DNA of 23,229 nucleotides, taken from positions 1 to 23,229 of IMG/VR virus record IMGVR_UViG_3300038652_000164; one strand, written 5' to 3'. How positions within the stretch are numbered: position 1 is the stretch's first letter; every line of letters starts with the position of its first letter. This DNA is from a virus. The notes below the pieces were generated by a model, which saw nothing but the letters and a program-made list of their open reading frames with translations, had not been told where the DNA came from and made no database searches. The position numbers and the translations under genes were made by a program. Shown here one piece after another: positions 2,831-20,249 of this stretch.

Positions 2831-2865
2831 GTGTGGTAAACCTAAATGACAGGAATCCACACTAT
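2828..2865 (+). promoter_or_regulatory. Hairpin covering the start codon at 2864
   Basis: ATAGTGTGG (2828-2836) is the exact reverse complement of CCACACTAT (2857-2865), giving a 9-bp stem with a 20-nt loop. The right arm includes the first two bases of the ATG at 2864, and the loop holds the AGGA Shine-Dalgarno. Read-through RNA from upstream promoters would carry both arms. RNA starting from the octamer at 2823 would lack the left arm. Confidence 0.5.
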
Positions 2866-5149
2866 GAATCCAGATTTTTTCGACATCAATGAACCCCTAC
2901 TAGAAGAACTCAATCGAGTCGGAATGTATTCTGACTCGAAACTTCGTCTATATAAAAACAAACAGGCGCTTGTCTTAAACGAAAACTATAAGAAAAAAGA
3001 CACAGCTAACGCACCCCGTCGTACTCCCACTGAGTATGAGTATAACGGGGTGTCTTTTTCGTGGAATTATTTCAAAGAGATATATACTAATTACGAGAAG
3101 TACCCAACACGCTATGACATCATGCAGGCGCTTGGTCTCCCGCGTCCCATGTTCTCGACTAAGCGGAATTATGAGGAGACCATGAACCGCATCATTCGGC
3201 ATTTTCGTGAAAAGAATAGAGAAGGAGCCGAAATATTGGTTAGTTTAAGTGATCGAGAGGAAGCCTATTACTCTGACTCGATACCCGAAGCATCAACCAA
3301 TAAAATCAACCAAGGCAAGAAAGGTCAGCGTCGTGCGTCTACTCCGGTTGTTGATATGCTCAATGGACAAGCCGTGGTTCCTGGTGAGTTCTATAGCGAT
3401 ATATCCCGCATCCCCAAGCGCAAATGGGGTAACTGGGTGCGTTTTTGGGAACGTCAGGTATCACGTATCAAAAACCCTAAATCAATTTTGGGTCGTGTCT
3501 GGTCAAAGACTTTTATCATGGGATACCAATTCCAGCGCAAGGTGGTGGTTGAGATTTGGTACAATTCCGCAACCTCTGACTTCAGTGTGTATGACCAGAA
3601 TGGTGGTGAGCTAGGCCGAGCAACCAAAACACTACAAGAATCCATTCGGTTATTTGTTACCTATCTGGTGCGAGAGTATTCGTCCGATAAGGAAATTTTT
3701 CAGAGCCAGGGCGATGCATCCCAATTAGCAAAATCATATATGAGTGCTATTAAGCGTGGTGCTAAACGCGATGCCATTGAAGCAGATCGTGAGGCAAAGC
3801 TAGCAGCAAAGGAACAAAAGAATAAAGGCAATGTACAGAACTCTATCAGTGGTGCGGTTAAAGCCGGAACACAGGCCAACGTACAGAGCCATGCTGATGC
3901 TGATGCTCGACGTAAAAAAGCATCCCCTGGTAATGCTGATGCTGATCCCAGTCGTGGTAATTCTCGTCAGGATGAGGACAACAAGCGACAACAAGAAAAA
4001 TCAGATCGTGGGTGGGCAGAGAATCCCAATGAGCATACGGGTAGTGGTAATATCGAAAAGAAAATGAAAGACGCTATCAATAAAGCACGCAAGGCTAAAG
4101 GGTTTGAAGAAGTCAGTCCTGAAGAATACAAAGCTAAGTATAACTTCAATCAACGAGAAGAAGAGATTAAGAAACGTGCGCAACAACAACGTGATGATAG
4201 TGAGCGTGCAAAGAACAACTATATGCAGCGCACTGGTGGTACAGCGCAGTCAATCGGTCGTGATGACGTAGTATATACGAGTGGTGATAAGACTAATCCT
4301 TCTTCTAATACGAAACAGAAAGGAATGTACGATCCTTTCGTATACGCCAATCAAGGTATTAACGCCAATCAGGTTACACAACTACGCACCAAGTATATGG
4401 ATTTGAAGGCTGAATACGAAGCAGAAACACAAGAAGTCGCTCGCCAGGAACGAGAAGCACGTGATGTTCAAAAAACTGAGGCAGGAAACAAACGTAAGAA
4501 GATTCTGAAAGATGACATCCTTGCTAGTCGCACCCAGGCATTACGGTTGAAGCGCCAAATGGAAGACGCAAAGAAAGAACTCAAGAAACTAGGTGATGAT
4601 CCTTCGAGTAACAATCAGTTACGGATTGCCGAAGCAGTCAAGGATTTTACTGAGTTTGAGTTTGATGCAGCCTCACAGGAATTGGATCGTGAAGCGGTTT
4701 CTCGTCGTAAGGCAGCCGAGCAGAGTGGGTTTACCACCTCTGCGATTCGTACCTCTACAATGACCGAGCTATTGTCTGTTTACAACGAGACACGTGTCAA
4801 TCCCAAAGGAATGAACACGTTTAGTCGTTTTATTCTCAATCGTCTTAAAGTCTTTCGTGGTCGTCGGGCACGTCTTGAACTACCGAAAGAACGAGCACCA
4901 GTCATTGATCGTATGCGGATGGCATTGATGGGTGCTTCATACCGTGCTGATTTTGTTATTGGGTTCTCATTGAAAGATGCCATTAATATTGAAGTTTGGT
5001 ATGTAACGGAACCTGATAGTGATCAGTACAATAAAACGATTTCTAGTTTTTATGTATATGATGTGACATCGGCCACCGTGGTACGTGCGAATCTTCCTTA
5101 CTATCGTTCCGCAGTTCAGGTGGCAATGGCTAAAATTGGAGTATCATAA
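2864..5149 (+). CDS. Large coiled, charged tail protein with a duplicated domain
   Basis: I do not recognise a named family for this 761-residue protein. Residues 1-170 are mixed helical. About 175-285 form a domain containing VVVEIWYNS and DFSVYDQNGGELG followed by a helix. About 285-640 are very rich in Lys, Glu, Gln, Asp and Ala, probably coiled coil or disordered, with AspAla repeats near 350. About 650-761 resemble the first domain again (INIEVWYVT, SSFYVYDVTSATVV, then a helix). It sits between the gp26-like pair and the tape-measure candidate, so a structural or tape-associated tail role is likely. The ATG at 2864 has AGGA 9 bases before it; the in-frame ATG at 2846 lacks a ribosome site. 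Confidence 0.6.
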   Translation: MNPDFFDINEPLLEELNRVGMYSDSKLRLYKNKQALVLNENYKKKDTANAPRRTPTEYEYNGVSFSWNYFKEIYTNYEKYPTRYDIMQALGLPRPMFSTKRNYEETMNRIIRHFREKNREGAEILVSLSDREEAYYSDSIPEASTNKINQGKKGQRRASTPVVDMLNGQAVVPGEFYSDISRIPKRKWGNWVRFWERQVSRIKNPKSILGRVWSKTFIMGYQFQRKVVVEIWYNSATSDFSVYDQNGGELGRATKTLQESIRLFVTYLVREYSSDKEIFQSQGDASQLAKSYMSAIKRGAKRDAIEADREAKLAAKEQKNKGNVQNSISGAVKAGTQANVQSHADADARRKKASPGNADADPSRGNSRQDEDNKRQQEKSDRGWAENPNEHTGSGNIEKKMKDAINKARKAKGFEEVSPEEYKAKYNFNQREEEIKKRAQQQRDDSERAKNNYMQRTGGTAQSIGRDDVVYTSGDKTNPSSNTKQKGMYDPFVYANQGINANQVTQLRTKYMDLKAEYEAETQEVARQEREARDVQKTEAGNKRKKILKDDILASRTQALRLKRQMEDAKKELKKLGDDPSSNNQLRIAEAVKDFTEFEFDAASQELDREAVSRRKAAEQSGFTTSAIRTSTMTELLSVYNETRVNPKGMNTFSRFILNRLKVFRGRRARLELPKERAPVIDRMRMALMGASYRADFVIGFSLKDAINIEVWYVTEPDSDQYNKTISSFYVYDVTSATVVRANLPYYRSAVQVAMAKIGVS

Positions 5150-9126: not shown

Positions 9127-10416
9127 ATGGAAGATGACTTCGTTGTTTTTGAGCGTCTTTTTGAAAAAACAGACTCAGTTGATGGTTTGTTCATCCGACT
9201 AACATCCGATAAAGATACGAGACTTGAGTATAATACCGTCACTGGAATAAGTTTCAGTGAATCAATGGGGAATATGGTTCCTGTCATGATTATTGATTTT
9301 GTTGATGGTTCGGGTGATTTCATCAATCATAATCGATTAGACACCGATGCCGTGTATACTCTCTATTTCGGCAGAACCGTCGAAGATTCATATCAAACCA
9401 AATATAAGATAGCGGATATCAATACGGCCAATAAAACAGCAGGCCGTTCGAATAACGTACAGTTCAAGGTCATTTTTGCTCATCAGCACTGGCAAGAGTT
9501 AACAGCCATCAATCGCAATCGTGGTTGGTATGACACTTACTACTCGGATGTGGTAGATGAAGTAGTAGCCGACGCTGGTTTTGGTGAAGTAGATATTGAA
9601 CCATCGAAACGAGCAATCAGTGAGTTGTTACAGAATAATAAACCCGACAACACCATGATACAGGAGATTGCACATTCCGCGACCCCCGAATCAGAAGATG
9701 GGCATTACGAATATTGTGGGACATTAGACAATCGTTTTTTCTTTCTAAGCACCGCCACGTTAATCGAAAAAGGCATTGAAGTGTATAAGAACGACAAAAT
9801 GCCAATTCTTCGATTAGGAGGAAACCCTCCTCCGGCGATCAGGGAAAAAGCATTTAAGGATAATAAAAATATTCCTGTCGGGTTTCTTGGTTTCTCTATC
9901 AATGAAAGCTACATGAGTAATGTTACTCGTGGTGTAACGTCTGTTGATGTTGGTTACTATGACTGGGAGGAAGGAAAATACATCAGGAATACGCGGAAAT
10001 ACACTGATCTAAAGTCAACCCAATTATCAGAAATGTCACTGATACGAGAATCAACGGACTTTGTATCACGCAAGTTATACGGGGGGCGTTCTCCTCAGAT
10101 AGTAGACCAAGCAAACAATGAACTGAGTATGCAGTCGCTTAGTATGCAGTCGATTGATATTAACATTGAAGGACAAATCGAAATGCATTGTGGTGATATC
10201 GTAGAAGTCATCATTCCTACGGGGGGAGATTCCGAAGTCCCCTACAGTGAAATGTATTCGGGTTTTTATATGATTAGAGAAATAGAACATGCAATGAGTC
10301 TTTCGCGTTCAACCGACTTTACATCCAGGATAACTATATCGCGTCATGGTGTTGATTCGAAAGAATTGAAAGGATATGTGTCATCCAAACGAGGGAGAGC
10401 TAATTTTGTCAGATAA
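9127..10416 (+). CDS. Baseplate hub protein, gp27/gpD-like
   Basis: This protein of about 429 residues lies between gp53 and the spike, the usual place of the trimeric hub (T4 gp27, P2 gpD). Its all-beta N-terminus with YTLYFGRTVEDSYQTKYKIADI, a helical middle (SDVVDEVVADAGF, NTMIQEIAHSAT), and the late strands IEMHCGDIVEVIIPTGG and YSGFYMIREIEH agree with that family. Members contain such 'GD.v.v' and 'G.Y.I..v.H' strands. ATG 9127 is preferred because AGGG (9115-9118) lies 8 bases upstream. A GTG at 9118, overlapping the gp53 stop as GTGA, is possible but only 3 bases from GGAG. The end of the gene overlaps the spike start by 11 bases. Confidence 0.65.
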   Translation: MEDDFVVFERLFEKTDSVDGLFIRLTSDKDTRLEYNTVTGISFSESMGNMVPVMIIDFVDGSGDFINHNRLDTDAVYTLYFGRTVEDSYQTKYKIADINTANKTAGRSNNVQFKVIFAHQHWQELTAINRNRGWYDTYYSDVVDEVVADAGFGEVDIEPSKRAISELLQNNKPDNTMIQEIAHSATPESEDGHYEYCGTLDNRFFFLSTATLIEKGIEVYKNDKMPILRLGGNPPPAIREKAFKDNKNIPVGFLGFSINESYMSNVTRGVTSVDVGYYDWEEGKYIRNTRKYTDLKSTQLSEMSLIRESTDFVSRKLYGGRSPQIVDQANNELSMQSLSMQSIDINIEGQIEMHCGDIVEVIIPTGGDSEVPYSEMYSGFYMIREIEHAMSLSRSTDFTSRITISRHGVDSKELKGYVSSKRGRANFVR

Positions 10417-11860
10417 CCAATTAATGGGGATGTATCGCGGTGAAGTCGTAAACGATCAAGACCCTAAGAGGGCTGGTCGCGTTCGTGTGAATGTTTTTAA
10501 TGTGTTTGATGATCTTGCTGACGATGCATTGCCATGGGCGATTTACTCTGATCCTTTCATGGGTGGGCAGGCTGATCTCGGTGGTATGTTCGTACCGGAC
10601 GTAGGAAGCCACGTATGGGTCTTCTTCGAACAAGGCGACCCAAAGATGCCTGTATACTTCGCAGGAGCACCAGCACGGCCCCACGGCCCAACAGAGGCAA
10701 CGTCGCAGGGTGAATACCCACGTAATAAAGTATTCAAAACCCGCCAGGGCCATACAGTTGAATTTGATGACACTGAAGGTGAGACGCGTATTCGTATTGC
10801 TCATGGCCCGTCCGGTACTCAAAAGACATATGCCCATAACGGGGATGCCGAGGAAGTCATTGAGGGTGGATTAACCATCATCGTAGAACAGGATGCAGTT
10901 CTATATGTGAAGGGTGATTGTCAAGAAACCGTAGAGGGAAATCTGACACGCTCAATTGAAGGTAATGTCAACGAGATCATCAATGGGAATCTAATTCAAT
11001 TTATCAATGGTGATATTAACCGTTCCAGTCTTGGACGTATCACCGAAGTATCGAATGGTGGGTCAGAATACACAACAACATCCAATATGAACATTACGGG
11101 TTCACGTGTCGATATCAACAAGGGTGGTGGGGCATCAGTAATGGTAGTAGACGGAATCTTCGTTTATACGACTGAGTATGCCTATTCTTTTAGTGCAGCC
11201 AAAGATTTAGTCGATGTTGCTGGGTCAAACGCACCATTCGATTCACCAGAAGATGCCGCGAATAAAGAAGATGCACTAAGTGGTGGTGAATTCCCACCAG
11301 AAGACACAGAAGTAGTAGATAGCGAAGAAGTAGTAACCAACGACGAGGAAACAGCCGTGGTAGATTCAGCATGTCCAACCGTAGATGAAAGTTCACCGTA
11401 TTCCACTCCGTTAGGGAATAAAGGAATGACGGTACGTGATTTAACACTCAGTCCTACATTCCCGCACCCGTTAGTGGCGCAACGAGGAAGAACGATCACT
11501 GAGTTGGTGTGTAACGCACATCACCTAACCGTGAATGTAATTGATCCTTTGTTAACACAGTTCCCAGAACTACGGATCAATAGTTGCTTTCGTCGTGGAG
11601 CTAGCGGTAGTAACCATAATATATTCGCAGCCGTAGACATGCAATCGAAGACTCGACCAGGAAGTATGACGCTATTGAGAGAGGTTCTGGACTTTATCGC
11701 CCAGAATATCCCATATCACACCGTCATAGCCGAAACAAGTAAGTCGTGGGGTACATGGTGGATTCATGTTGATTACCGTGAAGATGTAAGCCCTCCACGC
11801 AAAAAACGTATGACTTACGTCAATGGTTCCTATACCAACGGCTGGAATCTACCATCATAA
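10406..11860 (+). CDS. Central spike (gp5/VgrG-like) with C-terminal M15 peptidase
   Basis: This 484-residue protein has three parts. Residues about 1-110 form a gp5/VgrG OB-fold, with MGMYRGEVVNDQDPKRAGRV and WVFFEQGDPKMPVYFAG split here by intervening sequence. Residues about 168-220 are octapeptide VxGxxxxx units (VKGDCQET, VEGNLTRS, IEGNVNEI, INGNLIQF, INGDINRS), the needle beta-helix of T4 gp5. After an acidic Glu/Asp/Val linker, about 340-484 resemble a Peptidase_M15 (M15_3-type) domain with H404, D411 (HNIFAAVD) and H454 (WWIHVDYRE). There is no lysozyme domain between the OB-fold and the helix, unlike T4 gp5. TTG 10406 is chosen because GAGGGAGAG lies about 8 bases upstream. ATG 10376 has no site and ATG 10424 is too far. 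Confidence 0.75.
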   Translation: MSDNQLMGMYRGEVVNDQDPKRAGRVRVNVFNVFDDLADDALPWAIYSDPFMGGQADLGGMFVPDVGSHVWVFFEQGDPKMPVYFAGAPARPHGPTEATSQGEYPRNKVFKTRQGHTVEFDDTEGETRIRIAHGPSGTQKTYAHNGDAEEVIEGGLTIIVEQDAVLYVKGDCQETVEGNLTRSIEGNVNEIINGNLIQFINGDINRSSLGRITEVSNGGSEYTTTSNMNITGSRVDINKGGGASVMVVDGIFVYTTEYAYSFSAAKDLVDVAGSNAPFDSPEDAANKEDALSGGEFPPEDTEVVDSEEVVTNDEETAVVDSACPTVDESSPYSTPLGNKGMTVRDLTLSPTFPHPLVAQRGRTITELVCNAHHLTVNVIDPLLTQFPELRINSCFRRGASGSNHNIFAAVDMQSKTRPGSMTLLREVLDFIAQNIPYHTVIAETSKSWGTWWIHVDYREDVSPPRKKRMTYVNGSYTNGWNLPS

Positions 11861-12203: not shown

Positions 12204-12587
12204 ATGAACAATGCTGTTTACTCGGACATTGACAGGTCACTCAAACAAGACATATCGGGTAATTATGTCATTCATTATGACGCAGACGCAATTATTCAGA
12301 GTCTCAAGACCATTTTCTCTACTATATCAGGGGAACGGGTGAGGAATCCTATCGGGAGTGCTCTCATCCGTCTTCTTTTTGAACCCATGAACGAAGAAAA
12401 TGCGGATTCTATTCGTACCTCTATGATACAAACAATCAATAGATATGAACCCCGCGTAAATTTGACATCAGTTCAAATCACACCCGACTACGCTAATCAT
12501 ATATATGATGTCAAATTGTTGATGTCAGTTAAACGACTTACTAACAAAGTTAAGTTCGAATCTAAACTTCGTTCTCTTTACGCATAA
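12204..12587 (+). CDS. Baseplate wedge protein gp25-like
   Basis: This 127-residue protein is of the gp25/GPW family, the conserved sheath-initiator wedge protein of contractile tails. The diagnostic EPR motif is present (E82-P83-R84 in NRYEPRV). The preceding ERVRNPIGSALIRLLFEP stretch fits the family 'GER..P.fG..L...LFEP' segment, and the length is normal (T4 gp25 is 132 residues). It is followed at once by the gp6/J gene, as in most contractile systems. Its start is under the control of the late-promoter hairpin described above. It is the first gene of the wedge sub-operon. Confidence 0.9.
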   Translation: MNNAVYSDIDRSLKQDISGNYVIHYDADAIIQSLKTIFSTISGERVRNPIGSALIRLLFEPMNEENADSIRTSMIQTINRYEPRVNLTSVQITPDYANHIYDVKLLMSVKRLTNKVKFESKLRSLYA

Positions 12588-12599
12588 GGATTAAAAATA

Positions 12600-14708
12600 A
12601 TGAGCCGCGATTTAACCAACTACGAATACGAAGGGCTAGTCCAACAGATCACTGATCTGTATAAAGACAAGCCTGGGTTTGGTGATGGGTATGATTCATC
12701 TACCGGACAATTACTTATTCAACTGTTAGCCGATATCACCGATAACCTCCATTTCATGTTGGAACGTCGATCACAAGAAGCATTCTCATCTATTGCACGA
12801 CTCGAAAGCAGTGTGTGGATGGCTGCCTCTAGTATAGGTTACGTACCTCGCCGTAGCGTAAGCGCGATGGGTAACTTGGAGCTTACACTTAAAAACAGTG
12901 ATGGTGGTACTGTCGTCGCTGAATACGATGTTCCGATTTCTTACGGAACTAAAGTGTTCTTTGATGGGGAAGAATTCATTGTCGCGGAAGATGCCACTAT
13001 TACTCAGGGGGAATCGAGCGTACAACTATCCATCAAAGAAGGAATTCAGAAATCAAAGAGCTATAATTTTGCTTCATCTCCTTTCTTTGAGGATGGGTTC
13101 TTAACCTTAGAAAATTATAACACAATCGAAGAGTTTTCACTTAGCATTTCTGGTGATAACGGTGAGCGTTATAACTACGTAGACGAAGTTGACTTGGATG
13201 GTTTTCGTGCAGGAGCACTTTCGTTTGCACCAACTAATTACCCTGGCTATGAGATCAGGTTTGATCGCAATGGAATGCGTGTTGTATTTGGTAATGGCAA
13301 GTTCGGTAAACGACCACAATCAAATGTCACGGTTTCATGGGTAGAATCAAAAGGATCGGGTGTTAGTATCATCAGAACAGGATTAGATTTTGCGTTCGAA
13401 TTGGATACTGTGAAAGACTCACGAACCACCATCCCATCGAAGAGTTACTTGTACTCACTAAAGAATACAACATCAATCAACGGAGGGAACAACTCTGAAA
13501 GTATCGAAGAAATTAGGGATAACATTGCTTCGTTCATTCGCTCAAATGATCGTGCAGTGACCAACTCTGATTATAAGTTCAGGGTCATGAAAAGTGGTCT
13601 TGGTGCTATAAAAGATGTGAACGTATACGGTGAGAGAGAAAACGACTCTATTATATTCACGATGAACAACGTGTATGCTACGTATGTGACGGAAGACCAA
13701 CTTCCATTGAATGAAACACAAAAACGTCAGCTTCGTGATTATATTGATCGTTACAAGGTCAACACAACCCATGTTGTTTTTAAAGAAGCAGTCAAAACAC
13801 CCATTCGCCTGGGGATTGATTTCAAACGACACCCGACCTTACCGATATCAAATCAGCATCTATATAAAGAATTACTGTCACGCGTTGACGAGTATTTTGC
13901 TGTTCACGTGGGAGTCATTGGTAAAGGTTTCCAATATTCGGAATTTGTTAGCTTTCTACAGAACCTAAAAATAAACTTCAATTCTATTACCTACAGCATG
14001 ACTGATTATGTCTATGTTACGGCTAGTGCATTCTTTCCCTTCAACGTACCCACCCCTGCGTATGATGGTATTGTGGAGTTGTCGTACAGTTACGTACCAA
14101 ATGCAACAGATACATGGAGTGTGGTAGTGGATGGGGTTACGTACTCAGTCCCAGTACAATTGAATGATAATGTGGAAACATTGGTGTTGAAGATGCGTCA
14201 GAAGATTTTCACAGGAACTCCCTATATGGTAGCCCTTGAAGAACCAAATCAACTACGCATTCGACACCCCAGCCCATCCGGTACGTTCACGGTATCTGTT
14301 GCGGCGGGGGATATGACCGAGTTCTGTATCTTCCGTCATTTACTTCAACTTCCACTTGCAACCGCTGGTGGAGTCACGGGGACAACACCACAACTTAAAG
14401 CGACAACCATGACGATCAAAGACGCTAACGATGTAGCATTGATGCAAGACGCTAACGGTAATGGGTTGTTTGAATCACTGGATGGTTATTTCTTCCCTGA
14501 TACGCTCATTGACTACCAAAAAGCTATCATGCAGCTACCAACCGTACCGAACGGTGGTTATTATGTTCAGTATCAGCAGAATGACTTTCAGAATTTTGAT
14601 GTCGCACTGGATGGCTATATAACATTCTCTTCATTCCCATCATGGGAAGCTGTACAGAACCCAGAAGGTTCTGCCGTATACTTCAGTTACATTAACATAA
14701 TGGATTAA
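12600..14708 (+). CDS. Baseplate wedge protein gp6/J-like
   Basis: This 702-residue protein is of the baseplate J / T4 gp6 family, the backbone dimer of each wedge. The N-terminus (about 1-90) has the helical pattern DYDS..GQLLIQLLADITDNLHFMLERR and SSVWMAASSIGYVPR (parts shown separately). The middle contains the Baseplate_J-type IRDNIASFIRSNDRAVTNSDY region (about 300-325), where helices precede 'avt..Dy' followed by a beta strand. The last 200 residues are beta-rich and probably wedge-contact domains. AAGGA is 9 bases before the ATG. Size is close to T4 gp6 (660 residues). Confident at the family level. Confidence 0.85.
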   Translation: MSRDLTNYEYEGLVQQITDLYKDKPGFGDGYDSSTGQLLIQLLADITDNLHFMLERRSQEAFSSIARLESSVWMAASSIGYVPRRSVSAMGNLELTLKNSDGGTVVAEYDVPISYGTKVFFDGEEFIVAEDATITQGESSVQLSIKEGIQKSKSYNFASSPFFEDGFLTLENYNTIEEFSLSISGDNGERYNYVDEVDLDGFRAGALSFAPTNYPGYEIRFDRNGMRVVFGNGKFGKRPQSNVTVSWVESKGSGVSIIRTGLDFAFELDTVKDSRTTIPSKSYLYSLKNTTSINGGNNSESIEEIRDNIASFIRSNDRAVTNSDYKFRVMKSGLGAIKDVNVYGERENDSIIFTMNNVYATYVTEDQLPLNETQKRQLRDYIDRYKVNTTHVVFKEAVKTPIRLGIDFKRHPTLPISNQHLYKELLSRVDEYFAVHVGVIGKGFQYSEFVSFLQNLKINFNSITYSMTDYVYVTASAFFPFNVPTPAYDGIVELSYSYVPNATDTWSVVVDGVTYSVPVQLNDNVETLVLKMRQKIFTGTPYMVALEEPNQLRIRHPSPSGTFTVSVAAGDMTEFCIFRHLLQLPLATAGGVTGTTPQLKATTMTIKDANDVALMQDANGNGLFESLDGYFFPDTLIDYQKAIMQLPTVPNGGYYVQYQQNDFQNFDVALDGYITFSSFPSWEAVQNPEGSAVYFSYINIMD

Positions 14709-14714
14709 AAATAT

Positions 14715-16430
14715 ATGTCGTATAAAGACACACTCATCAATCGAGTACCAGAATCATATCAACACCATGAAGGTGTCATTGATTATCTTTCTGTTGCGGG
14801 TGAATTATTTGATGAATACCAAGCAGCCATTGTTAATATGGACTCCTATCGGGATTTCAATGATGTTGATTCTCGTCGGATACGGCAGCTTGCTATTGAT
14901 TTCGGAATGAATTTCCCACGAAACATCAACGAAGAAACACAACGAAACATCATACGTGATATCCACGATATATACTCTCGCGTGGGGATAAAGAGATTTA
15001 CTGATTGGGTGTTTAGGCTCATTGGATGGGAGATCGATGTTCAGGAGGCATGGCTTCCTAATCCTAATCAATACGATCCCTCTATCGCAGATATTCATAA
15101 ACTCGATTCATACGGTAAGCCATCGGATGTAACAATCACCGATTTTTATAGTGCTGATTACCGTGCCTTCTATATAGGCGAATCTTATGTAGCTGATGAT
15201 GGTAATGTGTATTTCAGAGGAAGACGTTTCTTCGATAAAACAATCTCGATCGATCAGTTAGAAATTGTGGGTGAACATTACGATGAAATGACTAAGGTAA
15301 GAACGGAAGATAAAGTAGGTTCAACCCCGTATATATTTGTTAATGTCAAAGAAGAGAATTATACAAACTTCCTTAACTCATACGTGTACCAACCTACCGG
15401 AGAACTATATGGGTTTAACCCGTTAGAGCAATTTACGATCATTGAGAATATTCTTAATTATTTCGTGTATGATAGTTTTCGTCCCTCTCATGTGCGTGTG
15501 GTTATCATCGTCAAGACAGAAACGAACGAAGATTATCTTACTATATACGATGATGTGTCCACCAAGTACCTCAGTAAACCGCTTATCATGGAAGATGATG
15601 GAGTCGTGACATTAGAAGAAACATCCAGGCTCGACCACACCATTGTGTCGGGTGATTTGTTTATGTCCGGTACACCACCCCATCCATTTGGCAGGAAGAT
15701 GTCAATTGCACCCATTGATTCTGCTAAGTGGATTGGGGCTGATACTCTTCGTTATAGTTCATTGAGTGATGGGAGTGTTTACCGTTATCGAATTGACTCG
15801 GTGATGAATTTCCAACCAGTTCCTTTATCACGTACAAACGAATTCTCTTTTTATACACCAGACAAAGAAGAGTATGACTTCCGTTTGGTGTTTGCTACTG
15901 AAGATGATTTTCTTTCGGCACACATAGAGTTAGGAACATTAGAAGATGTATACGACTTTCCGTTCCCCGAAGATCATGAATCACTGTCCCTGTTATTTGA
16001 TCTAAAGACGGATTCATACGGGATTATGTCTAGTAGTTCTTCGACCGCTATCATCATACGAGAACCGACGACCGTAACTTCTAATGCGTTTGACCGTTCG
16101 GGTACAATGGTAATGGGCAACACAACCGATAGTGGAGTTACTTTTGCTGATGATTTCTTATTAAAAACCAATTTCAAAACCAATAGCTGCTCGGTTGTTA
16201 AGACATTATCCACATTTACCTATTATTCTGATCTAACGATCAAAGTCAAAGAGCACAACAGAAACCCATTATTCACTACATTGATGAATAATCCAGACAT
16301 CGGTGATCTCGATGATTTGGTAGATTGGAACACGATTATGTTCGTACCGAACATTCCACTGGGGTTTGACTTAGTAGTGGATACTAAATATCGAGCACAA
16401 CCTACGTGGGAGAACGACCCACGACCATGA
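14715..16430 (+). CDS. Baseplate protein, tail protein I / gp7-like
   Basis: This 571-residue protein follows gp6/J, where T4 gp7 or P2 gpI lies. Its first 110 residues are consistent with tail protein I: LPESYQ-like opening (VPESYQHHEG), helix to DSRRIRQLAIDFGMN, then RNIIRDIHDIYSRVGIKRFTDWVFRLIGWE, the 'kg....l..l..l.G' pattern. The remaining 450 residues are beta-rich and unassigned. The Shine-Dalgarno is weak (only GGA, embedded in an A-rich leader), so translation may rely on coupling to the preceding gene six bases away. Its stop overlaps the ATG at 16427, but the next gene probably starts at 16439. Confidence 0.65.
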   Translation: MSYKDTLINRVPESYQHHEGVIDYLSVAGELFDEYQAAIVNMDSYRDFNDVDSRRIRQLAIDFGMNFPRNINEETQRNIIRDIHDIYSRVGIKRFTDWVFRLIGWEIDVQEAWLPNPNQYDPSIADIHKLDSYGKPSDVTITDFYSADYRAFYIGESYVADDGNVYFRGRRFFDKTISIDQLEIVGEHYDEMTKVRTEDKVGSTPYIFVNVKEENYTNFLNSYVYQPTGELYGFNPLEQFTIIENILNYFVYDSFRPSHVRVVIIVKTETNEDYLTIYDDVSTKYLSKPLIMEDDGVVTLEETSRLDHTIVSGDLFMSGTPPHPFGRKMSIAPIDSAKWIGADTLRYSSLSDGSVYRYRIDSVMNFQPVPLSRTNEFSFYTPDKEEYDFRLVFATEDDFLSAHIELGTLEDVYDFPFPEDHESLSLLFDLKTDSYGIMSSSSSTAIIIREPTTVTSNAFDRSGTMVMGNTTDSGVTFADDFLLKTNFKTNSCSVVKTLSTFTYYSDLTIKVKEHNRNPLFTTLMNNPDIGDLDDLVDWNTIMFVPNIPLGFDLVVDTKYRAQPTWENDPRP

Positions 16431-16438
16431 GGAATACT

Positions 16439-17860
16439 ATGAATAATATGTATGGTGGATCAGTCGTAATTCAAACCATCGATAGGAAAACAGGCGATAT
16501 CTTAGATGAATTTGGGCCTGAATCTAATATGGTTCTTGACCAAGGAGCGACGGTTCTATGGAAGCGTCTTTCAACATCCGACAGTGCCAGTCAGTCTAAA
16601 TTTTCATCTATTGCCATTGGCACCGATTTTGGTGATGTCTTGGATTGGAGTTCTTTTAACCCAGAACCACCCAACCGTGATATGACAGAAGACGATCAAG
16701 ACGTTATCTATTTTGTTCCTGTGGCGAACATGGAGTATACGTATCCAGACAGGAATGTCATTCAGGTCATCGGTCTTATTGATGGCGTACAGGCGATGAA
16801 TCAGAGTTTCCCTACTTCATTCGATGCCGAGTTTTCATCTGCCACATTACGAGTGGGTGATAATAAAGCATTTGCCTATAAGCGCTTTCCGGCGCGTTAC
16901 ATCACACGCGATGTTGATATCCGTATCATTTGGACACTGACGATGCAGAATGCTCGCACTTTCTGTGGTTTTCAAACACCAACAGACTCCGGTGTTTCTT
17001 CTTTGTATATTGCCAACCAGATTGAATTAATAAAAATCGATACGAATGGCGAAGAAGAGTGGAAGTATACCCCTCATGCGAATCGCATCACCGCCGTGTC
17101 CGCCGATATGTCCAATTATGTATATACAGGCGATGAAACCGGGTTGACTCAGAAGAATTCCAATCAACGAACCTTGATATGGCAAAACCTTCAAACCAAT
17201 TTAGACTTCCCTAATGCAGAACTCTCAAATGTCATTTATGATGACAGGGGCAATATCTATACCTCAGCACTGAACGGAGAGGTTAAGAAACTCACGGAAA
17301 ACGGAGGTCAGATTTGGCGTTATCATGACGAAGTAAGTGAGTTCGTTTATGTATATGGTGTTGATAGTGACTACTGGGCTTATGTCTATAACCCCCAACG
17401 AGATTATATTGTTCGAGTTGACCCCAATGGCATTATTGATGAACTGAATCAAGGAGAACACCCTTCTGCGATAACCGATGCAGTTGTTGATTCTGATGGG
17501 ATGTCCTTCACTATTTCAGCCGACCAAACAATTCGGGTGTTTAGTAATATGGGTGAACTCCTGTTAAGCAGCCCGACCACAAATATCCCCACGTCTGTCA
17601 GTCTGAGAGGAAAGACATCTATTGTTGTTGGGTTTACTTCTGGTGCTGTGTCCGTATATGACTATTCATTGAACGAAATATGGACGACCATATTAACCAA
17701 TCCTGTATCTAATGTAGTGATTGATTCTGATGGTGCAGTGTATGCGTCGGTGTTAAATACAAATGACACATATAAACTATCCCCTACTGGAACAGTGGAA
17801 TGGAGTTATAAGGCATTGGCCCCCATTAGTGCGATAGCCGTTGATAGGACAACTACATAA
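16439..17860 (+). CDS. Tail protein with seven-bladed propeller, copy 1
   Basis: This 473-residue protein has an N-terminal domain (about 1-180, ending IRIIWTLTMQN) shared with the next gene. A predicted seven-bladed propeller of PQQ/WD40-like repeats follows, about 40 residues each. Blades show 'v.vd..g.iYt...dg.v.k++..G...W.y': examples are NIYTSALNGEVKKL, GGQIWRYHD and GTVEWSYKA. No catalytic residues or propeller enzyme motif are seen, so a binding role on the tail is inferred. The ATG at 16439 has AGGA 5 bases upstream; ATG 16427 overlaps the previous stop but its ribosome site is too distant. Likely baseplate-attached host-contact protein or fibre connector. Confidence 0.55.
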   Translation: MNNMYGGSVVIQTIDRKTGDILDEFGPESNMVLDQGATVLWKRLSTSDSASQSKFSSIAIGTDFGDVLDWSSFNPEPPNRDMTEDDQDVIYFVPVANMEYTYPDRNVIQVIGLIDGVQAMNQSFPTSFDAEFSSATLRVGDNKAFAYKRFPARYITRDVDIRIIWTLTMQNARTFCGFQTPTDSGVSSLYIANQIELIKIDTNGEEEWKYTPHANRITAVSADMSNYVYTGDETGLTQKNSNQRTLIWQNLQTNLDFPNAELSNVIYDDRGNIYTSALNGEVKKLTENGGQIWRYHDEVSEFVYVYGVDSDYWAYVYNPQRDYIVRVDPNGIIDELNQGEHPSAITDAVVDSDGMSFTISADQTIRVFSNMGELLLSSPTTNIPTSVSLRGKTSIVVGFTSGAVSVYDYSLNEIWTTILTNPVSNVVIDSDGAVYASVLNTNDTYKLSPTGTVEWSYKALAPISAIAVDRTTT

Positions 17861-19362
17861 TGATGAGATATAATGATCGACAGATTGGGGGGATCAACGG
17901 GGTTCTTTCAATCAAAACAATATGCAAAGAAACAGGTCAAGTCCTTGATGTTTTTAAGGACAAGAACGTCATCACCCTTGATGGTATGAGTAAGCTATGG
18001 GAGAGAATGGCTGGTAACGGTGATATCATTTCCCATTTCGTTTTGGGTTCCGACTATGGTGTAGAAGAAGGGGGTGATTGGAACATCTTTGCTCCCAAGC
18101 CTGCCGAAAACTCATACAACACCGAAAATCAATTTGCTATTTATAGTGATGCCCCCGTGAATACGGTATTTGAATACCCATCCATCACCGAGTTACAAGT
18201 AGGTACGTTGCTTAATGGGGAGCGTATCATTGATGAACTGTTCCCAGATGAAGTGACAGTACGCTATAACTCTGCATCCATTCGGTTTGGTGATGACACG
18301 ATTTTCTCGTACAAACGATTTCCTGTCCGTTCTATATCTCGTCTTGTAGATGTTCAGATTCTATGGACATTCACCTTAGTAGACAGTGCATTGTTTGATT
18401 GTGGGATAGTTGACCCACCATTAGTTGACCCAATACCGGATCACTCATTGGGTATCAGTGTATATGCTGGGTATTGGGGTGATAATTCCATCCACAAGAT
18501 CGATGATGATGCCAACCCGCTATGGGTGTACAATGGACATACTGATTGGGTTAACGATATCAAAGTGAATAACCAGTATCTATTTTCGGTCGGTCGTGAT
18601 CTCAGTTTGCATGTGCTCAATACCGTCGATGGTACTCCTTTCAATATAATCCCAATGGCACATGCTTCTGTTATTAATCGTATATTGATCGATGGTGATC
18701 GTGTGGTTACTGTTGCAAATGACAGCCATGTCAAGAAGTGGAACTATGTGGATGGTGAAACTGTATGGGACTATTCACCCACAGTAAGTTCAAATGCGAT
18801 GGCGATTGTTAAGTCGGCATCCAATGGCAGCTACTACGTGGCCTACCGAGACGGTAATATCGTTCAGTTAAACTCCGAAACGGGTGCTGAACAAAACATC
18901 ATATCACTCGGTTATGAGATTGTTGAAATCGAAATAACACCTGAAAATGATTTGTTGGTTTCCTTTCTTGATGACAGTGTGGGTGGTTTGGCGTATGCAG
19001 TGATTCGATACTCAACAACATTCAATAATACTCAGCTAACCATCGATGATTATGATGACTATAGTTTCAGGATTATATACGACACGACAGGCAATGACAC
19101 GGCCCCTGATTTTTATATTGGTTCTGATGTAAAGACGGTAAGGCGATATACCAGGACAGGTCTACTCGTATGGGAATTTGATCGGCACACCGATATTATT
19201 CGTGGCATGGATATGGATCAATTTGGTTATCTGTACACAGGTAGCCTTGACCAAACAGTACGTAAGATAACTCCGAATGGTAATCAGGTGTGGGCTTATA
19301 CCGCAAATGAAAATCCACCATCATGTATCGCCGTAAGCATTAGTCCCGAAACAACACCATAA
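17860..19362 (+). CDS. Tail protein with seven-bladed propeller, copy 2
   Basis: This 500-residue paralogue of the previous gene product has the same architecture. Shared N-terminal landmarks are GG-.V.SI-T (GVLSIKTICKETGQVLDVF versus VVIQTIDRKTGDILDEF), SASIRFGDDTIFSYKRFPVRSISR versus SATLRVGDNKAFAYKRFPARYITR (split for reading), and VQILWTFTL. The propeller again has seven blades, with WD-like elements such as GHTDWVNDIKV, SVGRDLSLHVL, YTGSLDQTVRKI and NQVWAYTA. Blade 5 is longer. ATG 17860 overlaps the previous stop by one base, with AGGA 10 bases upstream. An adjacent ATG at 17863 is an alternative. Role as for copy 1. Confidence 0.55.
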   Translation: MMRYNDRQIGGINGVLSIKTICKETGQVLDVFKDKNVITLDGMSKLWERMAGNGDIISHFVLGSDYGVEEGGDWNIFAPKPAENSYNTENQFAIYSDAPVNTVFEYPSITELQVGTLLNGERIIDELFPDEVTVRYNSASIRFGDDTIFSYKRFPVRSISRLVDVQILWTFTLVDSALFDCGIVDPPLVDPIPDHSLGISVYAGYWGDNSIHKIDDDANPLWVYNGHTDWVNDIKVNNQYLFSVGRDLSLHVLNTVDGTPFNIIPMAHASVINRILIDGDRVVTVANDSHVKKWNYVDGETVWDYSPTVSSNAMAIVKSASNGSYYVAYRDGNIVQLNSETGAEQNIISLGYEIVEIEITPENDLLVSFLDDSVGGLAYAVIRYSTTFNNTQLTIDDYDDYSFRIIYDTTGNDTAPDFYIGSDVKTVRRYTRTGLLVWEFDRHTDIIRGMDMDQFGYLYTGSLDQTVRKITPNGNQVWAYTANENPPSCIAVSISPETTP

Positions 19363-19379: not shown

Positions 19380-20249
19380 ATGCCAGTATATGATTACACA
19401 AAACGAATAGCCGAATTGGGGACACTTGATACTCTTGCAGATAATGATGAAATTATCATTGTTGATAAGAGTGACTTGAGTGGAACACCAAATGGAACGG
19501 ATAAGAAAGTTATCCCCCGTACTATCGTCGAGCAAGCGAATGTCCGGCCAGCCAATAATCTAACGGTTAGTAAGAAACTAACAGAGTGGTTGGGTGACTT
19601 TAATCAGGCGATTACTTCCGTTCAAGAAAAAGTACAAGACGCCACAACCACCCAGAAGGGTATCTCGCGGCTTGCGAGTGATTCGGAGGCCATAGCACAA
19701 GTCAGCAGTACAACGTCGCTTACGCCTGCTAATCTGGCGAGTATGGGTGCAACCGAAGAACGCACTGGTCTTGTGAAACTTCTTTCTAGTAGTGACCTTC
19801 TTACTAACATGACGAATGATCGATTAGCCGTAACAGCGAGTACCCTTTTTGCTGGGTTGTTCTCTGATAGTATCTTCGGGACGGATTCGTTTGTGTTTCG
19901 GATTCCAACCAAAAATTCAGACGATGATACGGTTACTCATCTAACGGTACAGTATGGACAGAGGGAAATTAACAGTGTCGCTTCTACGAACCGCCCAGAA
20001 TCAAACTTCAACCATATCCATCCATTTATAGATATCGGGGTTACTTTTCCACAGGAATTCGAGAATCGATGCCTGATGGTTATCCCTATGGGATATAACG
20101 TCAACTCGGTGTATGAAGAAGGCACCGAATTTGTATACCGAGAGCTGACATCGACCATAGCCACCGCCACCATACGTGCATCACGGATAGAAGGCGACAA
20201 CACAACAGGCGAACGAATCGGTGTTAAATACATTGCCATAGGATATTAA
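19380..20249 (+). CDS. Tail fibre protein with gp37-type repeats
   Basis: This 289-residue fibre-like protein has an N-terminal part of about 80 residues that may attach it. Two fibre repeats follow: TTQKGISRLAS...AIAQVSSTTSLTPANLASM and EERTGLVKLLSSSDLLTNMTNDRLAVTASTL (parts), the phage tail-fibre repeat pattern 'T..GI..LA....a..G......altp..La'. The last 120 residues end in GVKYIAIGY, like the WIAIG/YIAIG tips of receptor-binding domains. A GAGG ribosome site lies 10 bases before the ATG. It is short for a fibre and may form a tip or short trimeric fibre. Confidence 0.65.
   Translation: MPVYDYTKRIAELGTLDTLADNDEIIIVDKSDLSGTPNGTDKKVIPRTIVEQANVRPANNLTVSKKLTEWLGDFNQAITSVQEKVQDATTTQKGISRLASDSEAIAQVSSTTSLTPANLASMGATEERTGLVKLLSSSDLLTNMTNDRLAVTASTLFAGLFSDSIFGTDSFVFRIPTKNSDDDTVTHLTVQYGQREINSVASTNRPESNFNHIHPFIDIGVTFPQEFENRCLMVIPMGYNVNSVYEEGTEFVYRELTSTIATATIRASRIEGDNTTGERIGVKYIAIGY

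Follow-up and report, generated by a model that had tools for sequence, protein, structure and literature searches.

The stretch of DNA considered here (the window) is the complete IMG/VR virus record IMGVR_UViG_3300038652_000164, 23,229 bases long and probably a genome fragment. It carries a contractile tail cluster in the order: two tail-tube-like proteins, a tape measure, an OB-domain hub, a PAAR protein, gp25-like, J/gp6-like and I-like wedge genes, then a tandem pair designated here as genes A and B, then fibers. A first-pass annotation made from the sequence had described A and B as paralogous tail genes with a shared N-terminal domain (N-domain) and a predicted seven-bladed propeller each. 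This description holds: both open reading frames are present in a tail-cluster context, their products align by BLASTP (E 1e-31, 29% identity over 309 amino acids [aa], mostly in the N-domain), and the propeller is recovered by structural modeling for A and from the repeats for B. On balance we favor the interpretation that A and B encode components of the virion, located at the edge of the baseplate, and that each combines a conserved baseplate docking module with a swappable receptor-binding propeller. The relevant features are as follows.

12204 to 12587, plus strand: gp25/W-like baseplate wedge protein, the upstream neighbor (Pfam GPW_gp25, E 4e-12; phrog_261)
12600 to 14708, plus strand: J/gp6-like baseplate wedge protein, first gene of a conserved J-I-N block (phrog_219 baseplate wedge, E 8e-42)
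14715 to 16430, plus strand: I-like baseplate protein, second gene of the J-I-N block, so named from its position, a weak Pfam match to Tail_P2_I (0.015, below cut-off) and a match to P2 gpI via an I profile (0.002, co-linear region)
16429 to 16432, plus strand: GAGG, putative ribosome-binding site (Shine-Dalgarno) of gene A, 6 nt ahead of the ATG at 16439
16439 to 17860, plus strand: gene A, 473 aa, N-domain and propeller
16439 to 16966, plus strand: A N-domain, residues 1–176, putative phrog_5417-type docking module
16967 to 17002, plus strand: A linker, residues 177–188, low model confidence, likely flexible
17003 to 17842, plus strand: A predicted seven-bladed beta-propeller, residues 189–468
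17860 to 19362, plus strand: gene B, 500 aa, N-domain and propeller; the first base of its start codon is the last base of the A stop codon, at 17860
17860 to 18405, plus strand: B N-domain, residues 1–182
18406 to 18450, plus strand: B proline-rich linker, residues 183–197, IVDPPLVDPIPDHSL
18451 to 19347, plus strand: B propeller, residues 198–496, probably seven blades from repeat spacing
19380 to 20249, plus strand: first downstream tail-fiber gene, phrog_910 tail collar fiber with a gp53-like C-terminus (PHROGs and Pfam matches)

AlphaFold, run on A with nine related sequences, gave a model with a mean predicted local distance difference test (pLDDT) score of 82. Its strands from residue 189 onward fall into the series 3+4+4+4+4+4+4+1, for a total of 28; this implies seven blades of four strands each, the first blade being completed by the final strand (a 1+3 Velcro closure). 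The structure prediction proposed as a check by the first-pass annotation therefore returns a closed ring, and A is predicted to be a seven-bladed beta-propeller of the WD40/PQQ type. The best closed full-ring match to the model in a Foldseek search was 7bid, a 7-bladed designed propeller (template modeling [TM] score 0.84 over the target, 2.6 Å); the top matches by E-value were designed repeat propellers with lower TM scores (0.49–0.66). Residues 172–186 have pLDDT <50 and are a probable flexible linker. B is likely also seven-bladed, judging from homology and from its seven d-strand positions, which were placed by eye and are spaced 40–47 residues apart.

Both proteins match phrog_8401, “beta-propeller repeat protein” (A 3.9e-23, B 1.1e-19). 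Pfam matches in B include PQQ_2 (2e-09) and WD40 (7e-08), both above the gathering score, while those in A are weak. A blade hidden Markov model trained solely on a related contig, L006, scored 55.5 bits for A and 77.5 bits for B, against a maximum of 7.3 for 400 shuffled propellers. The family matches bear out the PQQ/WD40-like character first ascribed to the repeats, with a refinement: tryptophan has been lost in blades 4–5 of A and blades 2, 4, and 5 of B, and an ungapped period test finds a clear 40-residue period in L006 A and B only, not in the window copies. The two window propellers are only ~22% identical, compared to 34% for the N-domains alone. Single propeller proteins used as queries against viral contigs found nothing, and alignment queries were needed. 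The A propeller has matches in Salicola phage SCTP-2, a Clostridioides phage, and a Levilactobacillus phage, confined to the propeller region and probably reflecting generic repeats.

Propeller depolymerases exist on phage tails (PMC10607447, PMC4901313), and the A and B propellers could conceivably be enzymes acting on surface polysaccharide, like endosialidases and other propeller hydrolases. We consider this improbable: nothing in the window matched a phage hydrolase or lyase family above its cut-off, and the propeller matches are to BamB/WD40-like groups.

The N-domain leads to a family found in many cultured phages. The phrog_5417 profile (156 positions) is matched over positions 11–155 in A (4e-05) and 12–155 in B (4e-04); a profile search with the N-domain alone, an earlier suggestion, thus yields a nearly full-length match in each copy, by which both appear to be family members. 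Modeled alone with 13 sequences, the N-domain has a pLDDT of 86 and a predicted TM score of 0.81. Among solved structures there is a single match with E <0.001, to the baseplate hub gp44 of HFTV1 (PDB 9H4P; E 3e-4, TM 0.51), identified as gp44 from its length and the paper describing it. Independently of structure, gp44 residues 404–507 match phrog_5417 by sequence. In the BFVD database of predicted viral structures, the matches are to small uncharacterized proteins, among them a protein from Campylobacter phage CP8, and to tail-collar fiber proteins. The N-domain model (16439–16984) also matches archaeal filamentous virus proteins (Betalipothrixvirus, SIFV gp53-like) with moderate TM scores, which could be chance beta-sandwich similarity.

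Searches of named phages by tblastn with N-domain queries from the window, L009, or L010 yielded nothing useful; the link to cultured phages was made by the structure search and then with the CP8 protein as query. The CP8 protein of matching length (AGS81307) is a full phrog_5417 member (5e-57), encoded after gp6 and one further gene, and matches 65 named phages of Campylobacter, Vibrio, Yersinia, and Pseudomonas. In the other direction, a profile built without CP8-type sequences recovers the cultured-phage proteins (E 3e-12 to 7e-5). Nearly all of these are listed as hypothetical, and one as “baseplate protein.” An alignment search of bacterial and archaeal genomes found no relatives.

YerA41 (YerA41_175c), Peetri (Peetri_00118), and phiKT1024 (UOK16790) have a gp25-position gene, J, an I-position gene, and N, followed by fiber or tail genes, and in CP8/NCTC12673 the solo N likewise follows the I-position gene. 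Relatives of the window were gathered by scans with J, I, and N alignments, counting only contigs that extend past I; outside the window's own clade, the gene after I encodes a solo N protein of ~170–265 aa in all 13 readable contigs (one is cut by the contig end). These solo proteins share the domain and its place after the wedge genes with A and B, but are single-copy, without a propeller, and without an annotated function. Since many myoviruses encode this domain as a separate protein in the corresponding position, the shared N-domain very probably docks on the baseplate, in agreement with the single docking site proposed for the pair at first pass.

Several departures from this arrangement were seen. 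No N-domain protein could be detected after I in Slicko01 (L005:14101-17657), the named phage with the closest J protein; a 177-aa tail-fiber-like protein takes this place. In the Campylobacter phages CP220, CC_R7, and IBB_35 (L047, L049, L050), the solo N gene no longer adjoins the wedge genes. It stands by itself on the opposite strand, next to clamp-loader and radical SAM genes, and one of these displaced copies is annotated as a baseplate protein. In one subgroup, the N-domain and the adjoining I-like protein (L014:9719-10492 and L014:8223-9722; L016:9515-10288 and L016:8013-9518) share a similar ~75-residue beta-rich insert of pattern PNxxFxxxDPxTITRxxGxxxxDGFxxE..., as if one module had been copied into neighboring baseplate proteins. 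In a further contig, the solo N is immediately followed by a 1743-aa repetitive fiber-like protein (L010:10496-15727).

Two N genes were found only in the window, L006, and L008, and the tandem copy and propellers are confined to these three contigs. In the J tree the three group together (support 100/99), with L008 outermost (90/90); in the N-domain tree the six N-domains of these contigs form a group (91/95), within which the A copies of the window and L006 pair with support of 99/98 and the B copies join at 80/94. Both trees suggest that tandem duplication probably occurred once, in the common ancestor of the three. L006 has a propeller on both genes. L008 A is a bare N-domain of 184 aa, and the C-terminal region of L008 B, which differs greatly from the others, is weakly propeller-like (Pfam 8e-4, blade model 18 bits). 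The L006 A and B propellers are 32% identical (z 17.5), and those of L006 B and L008 B 22% (z 4), which would fit later copying of the propeller between A and B, although repeats mislead such comparisons. Two histories stand for the A propeller: it was copied from B, or it was lost in L008. The contigs provide a traceable series, from a solo domain to a duplicated domain with one C-terminal extension to a duplicated domain with two propellers.

This distribution also bears on whether A and B might form one mixed ring, a purely architectural hetero-oligomer in which each copy needs the other. The genes are in tandem, overlapping or nearly so, and both are kept in three divergent contigs; but most relatives manage with a single copy, and L008 A has no propeller. 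We regard a mixed ring as very improbable.

Sequence divergence between the window and L006 differs among the parts. The A and B N-domains are 52% and 52% identical, J 52%, and I 44%, compared to 26% for the A propeller, 25% for the tape measure, and 30–43% for the fibers; the B propeller is 43% identical by global and 39% by local alignment. A propeller at 26% attached to an N-domain at 52% would be expected if the socket is fixed and the head replaceable; the 43% of the B propeller would also fit a structural part. As this is one genome pair at moderate distance, the comparison is weak evidence. The earlier suggestion that the pair offers two binding specificities is plausible in light of the low identity of the two propellers and their differing evolutionary rates.

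The conservation of the B propeller also counts toward a second explanation, in which the propellers serve as structural adaptors. As scaffolds of the WD40 type, they would either tether the downstream fibers to the J/I wedge or keep the baseplate locked until contraction, without touching the host. WD40 and PQQ_2 relatives, the kindred that the Pfam matches point to, are mostly protein–protein scaffolds. The A and B genes lie between wedge and fibers, and in crassviruses and T7-type phages the propellers belong to the structure of the tail end (PMC10172136). However, relatives with the J-I-N-fiber order but no propeller, together with the propeller-less L008 copy A, indicate that fibers can be held without one, and few parts of the cluster are as poorly conserved as the A propeller. 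We regard an adaptor role as unlikely overall, although it is the strongest of the alternatives.

The preferred interpretation, docking modules with receptor-binding heads, would then work as follows. Each N-domain would be a duplicated copy of a small conserved baseplate protein, phrog_5417, sitting on the J/I wedge, with I as the putative docking partner, where P2 places its tail-fiber N-terminus. From it, a propeller would hang by a flexible linker and act as the head that binds the receptor, probably a surface glycan or some other component of the envelope. A may supply a fast-evolving, replaceable specificity, and B a more constant one. Several points weigh against this. The ordinary tail-fiber genes downstream could encode the real receptor-binding proteins; the B propeller is conserved almost as well as its structural neighbors; the kinship of the N-domain with fiber N-domains (PF12571) is not significant by sequence; and the arrangement is found in only three contigs, with a single orthologous pair compared and other possible causes for fast divergence.

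A broader proposal, which we put forward tentatively and with somewhat less confidence than doubt, is that phrog_5417 proteins make up a third component of the wedge in general, serving a broad group of contractile-tailed viruses (the J-I-N block) as a docking socket on which different lineages hang different C-terminal heads. Here, duplication of the socket would have led to an array of propellers with two specificities, one head being conserved and the other changing fast. The individual parts are already known; their combination is new but falls short of revolutionary. An anonymous family of many cultured phages would thereby become a likely baseplate docking module, for which Pseudomonas phage Peetri and Campylobacter phage NCTC12673 could serve as test systems.

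Elsewhere in the window, the neighboring tail-tube-like proteins (319–1017 and 1018–1773) both match phrog_45, the second being more divergent. A 767-aa tail-cluster protein (2846–5149) has no PHROGs match but has a relative in L006 at 29% identity. The C-terminal residues 377–486 of the OB-domain hub (10376–11860) match the endolysin family phrog_894, so that it is possibly a tail-associated peptidase.

Among known systems, the T4 baseplate is not the closest parallel. The first-pass annotation had placed A and B where T4 has gp8–gp10, but no similarity to gp8, gp9, or gp10 was found in PHROGs, Pfam, PDB sequences, or the top Foldseek matches, and the order is P2-like: W-J-I, then the slot of P2 gpH (PF12571), with gp25 at 12204, J at 12600, I at 14715, and A at 16439. 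The tail-collar fiber proteins among the distant Foldseek matches of the N-domain are a further likeness to gpH, which is however a fiber rather than a propeller. Membership of the N-domain in PF12571 is not supported by sequence (no Pfam match up to E 10; hhalign p 0.016, probability 3%). HFTV1 gp44, the only solved structure that the N-domain matches significantly, carries at its C-terminus a predicted carbohydrate-binding domain assigned to attachment (PMC12494034), but HFTV1 is an archaeal siphovirus, and the phrog_5417-like stretch is embedded in a trimeric hub without a propeller.

That propellers fall outside the textbook T4 layout, as originally remarked, needs qualifying, because other tails use them, including at a myovirus baseplate. 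T7, SU10, and crassviruses have them as nozzle or muzzle. In the receptor-binding protein Gp45 of the phi11 baseplate, the likely binding domain is a propeller (PMC4901313), but one with five blades in a central position between stem and tower, in a Gram-positive siphovirus. The closest known analog in design is phiKZ gp131, from a myovirus tail with tandem paralogs: it shares its N-terminal part with its neighbors gp133–gp135 and its C-terminal end, located at the baseplate periphery, is a seven-bladed propeller (PDB 4GBF), for which receptor-binding or enzymatic roles have been speculated (PMC4901313). In phiKZ, only one paralog carries the solved propeller, and the gene neighborhood is different. 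Kinship with the gp131 family (phrog_13857/2163) was rejected, as hmmsearch gave no match either way for the N-terminal part or the propeller; the window arrangement therefore looks like an independent instance, and the two designs are likely convergent. This apparent second, unrelated case suggests that propellers are a recurrent solution for baseplate-edge heads.
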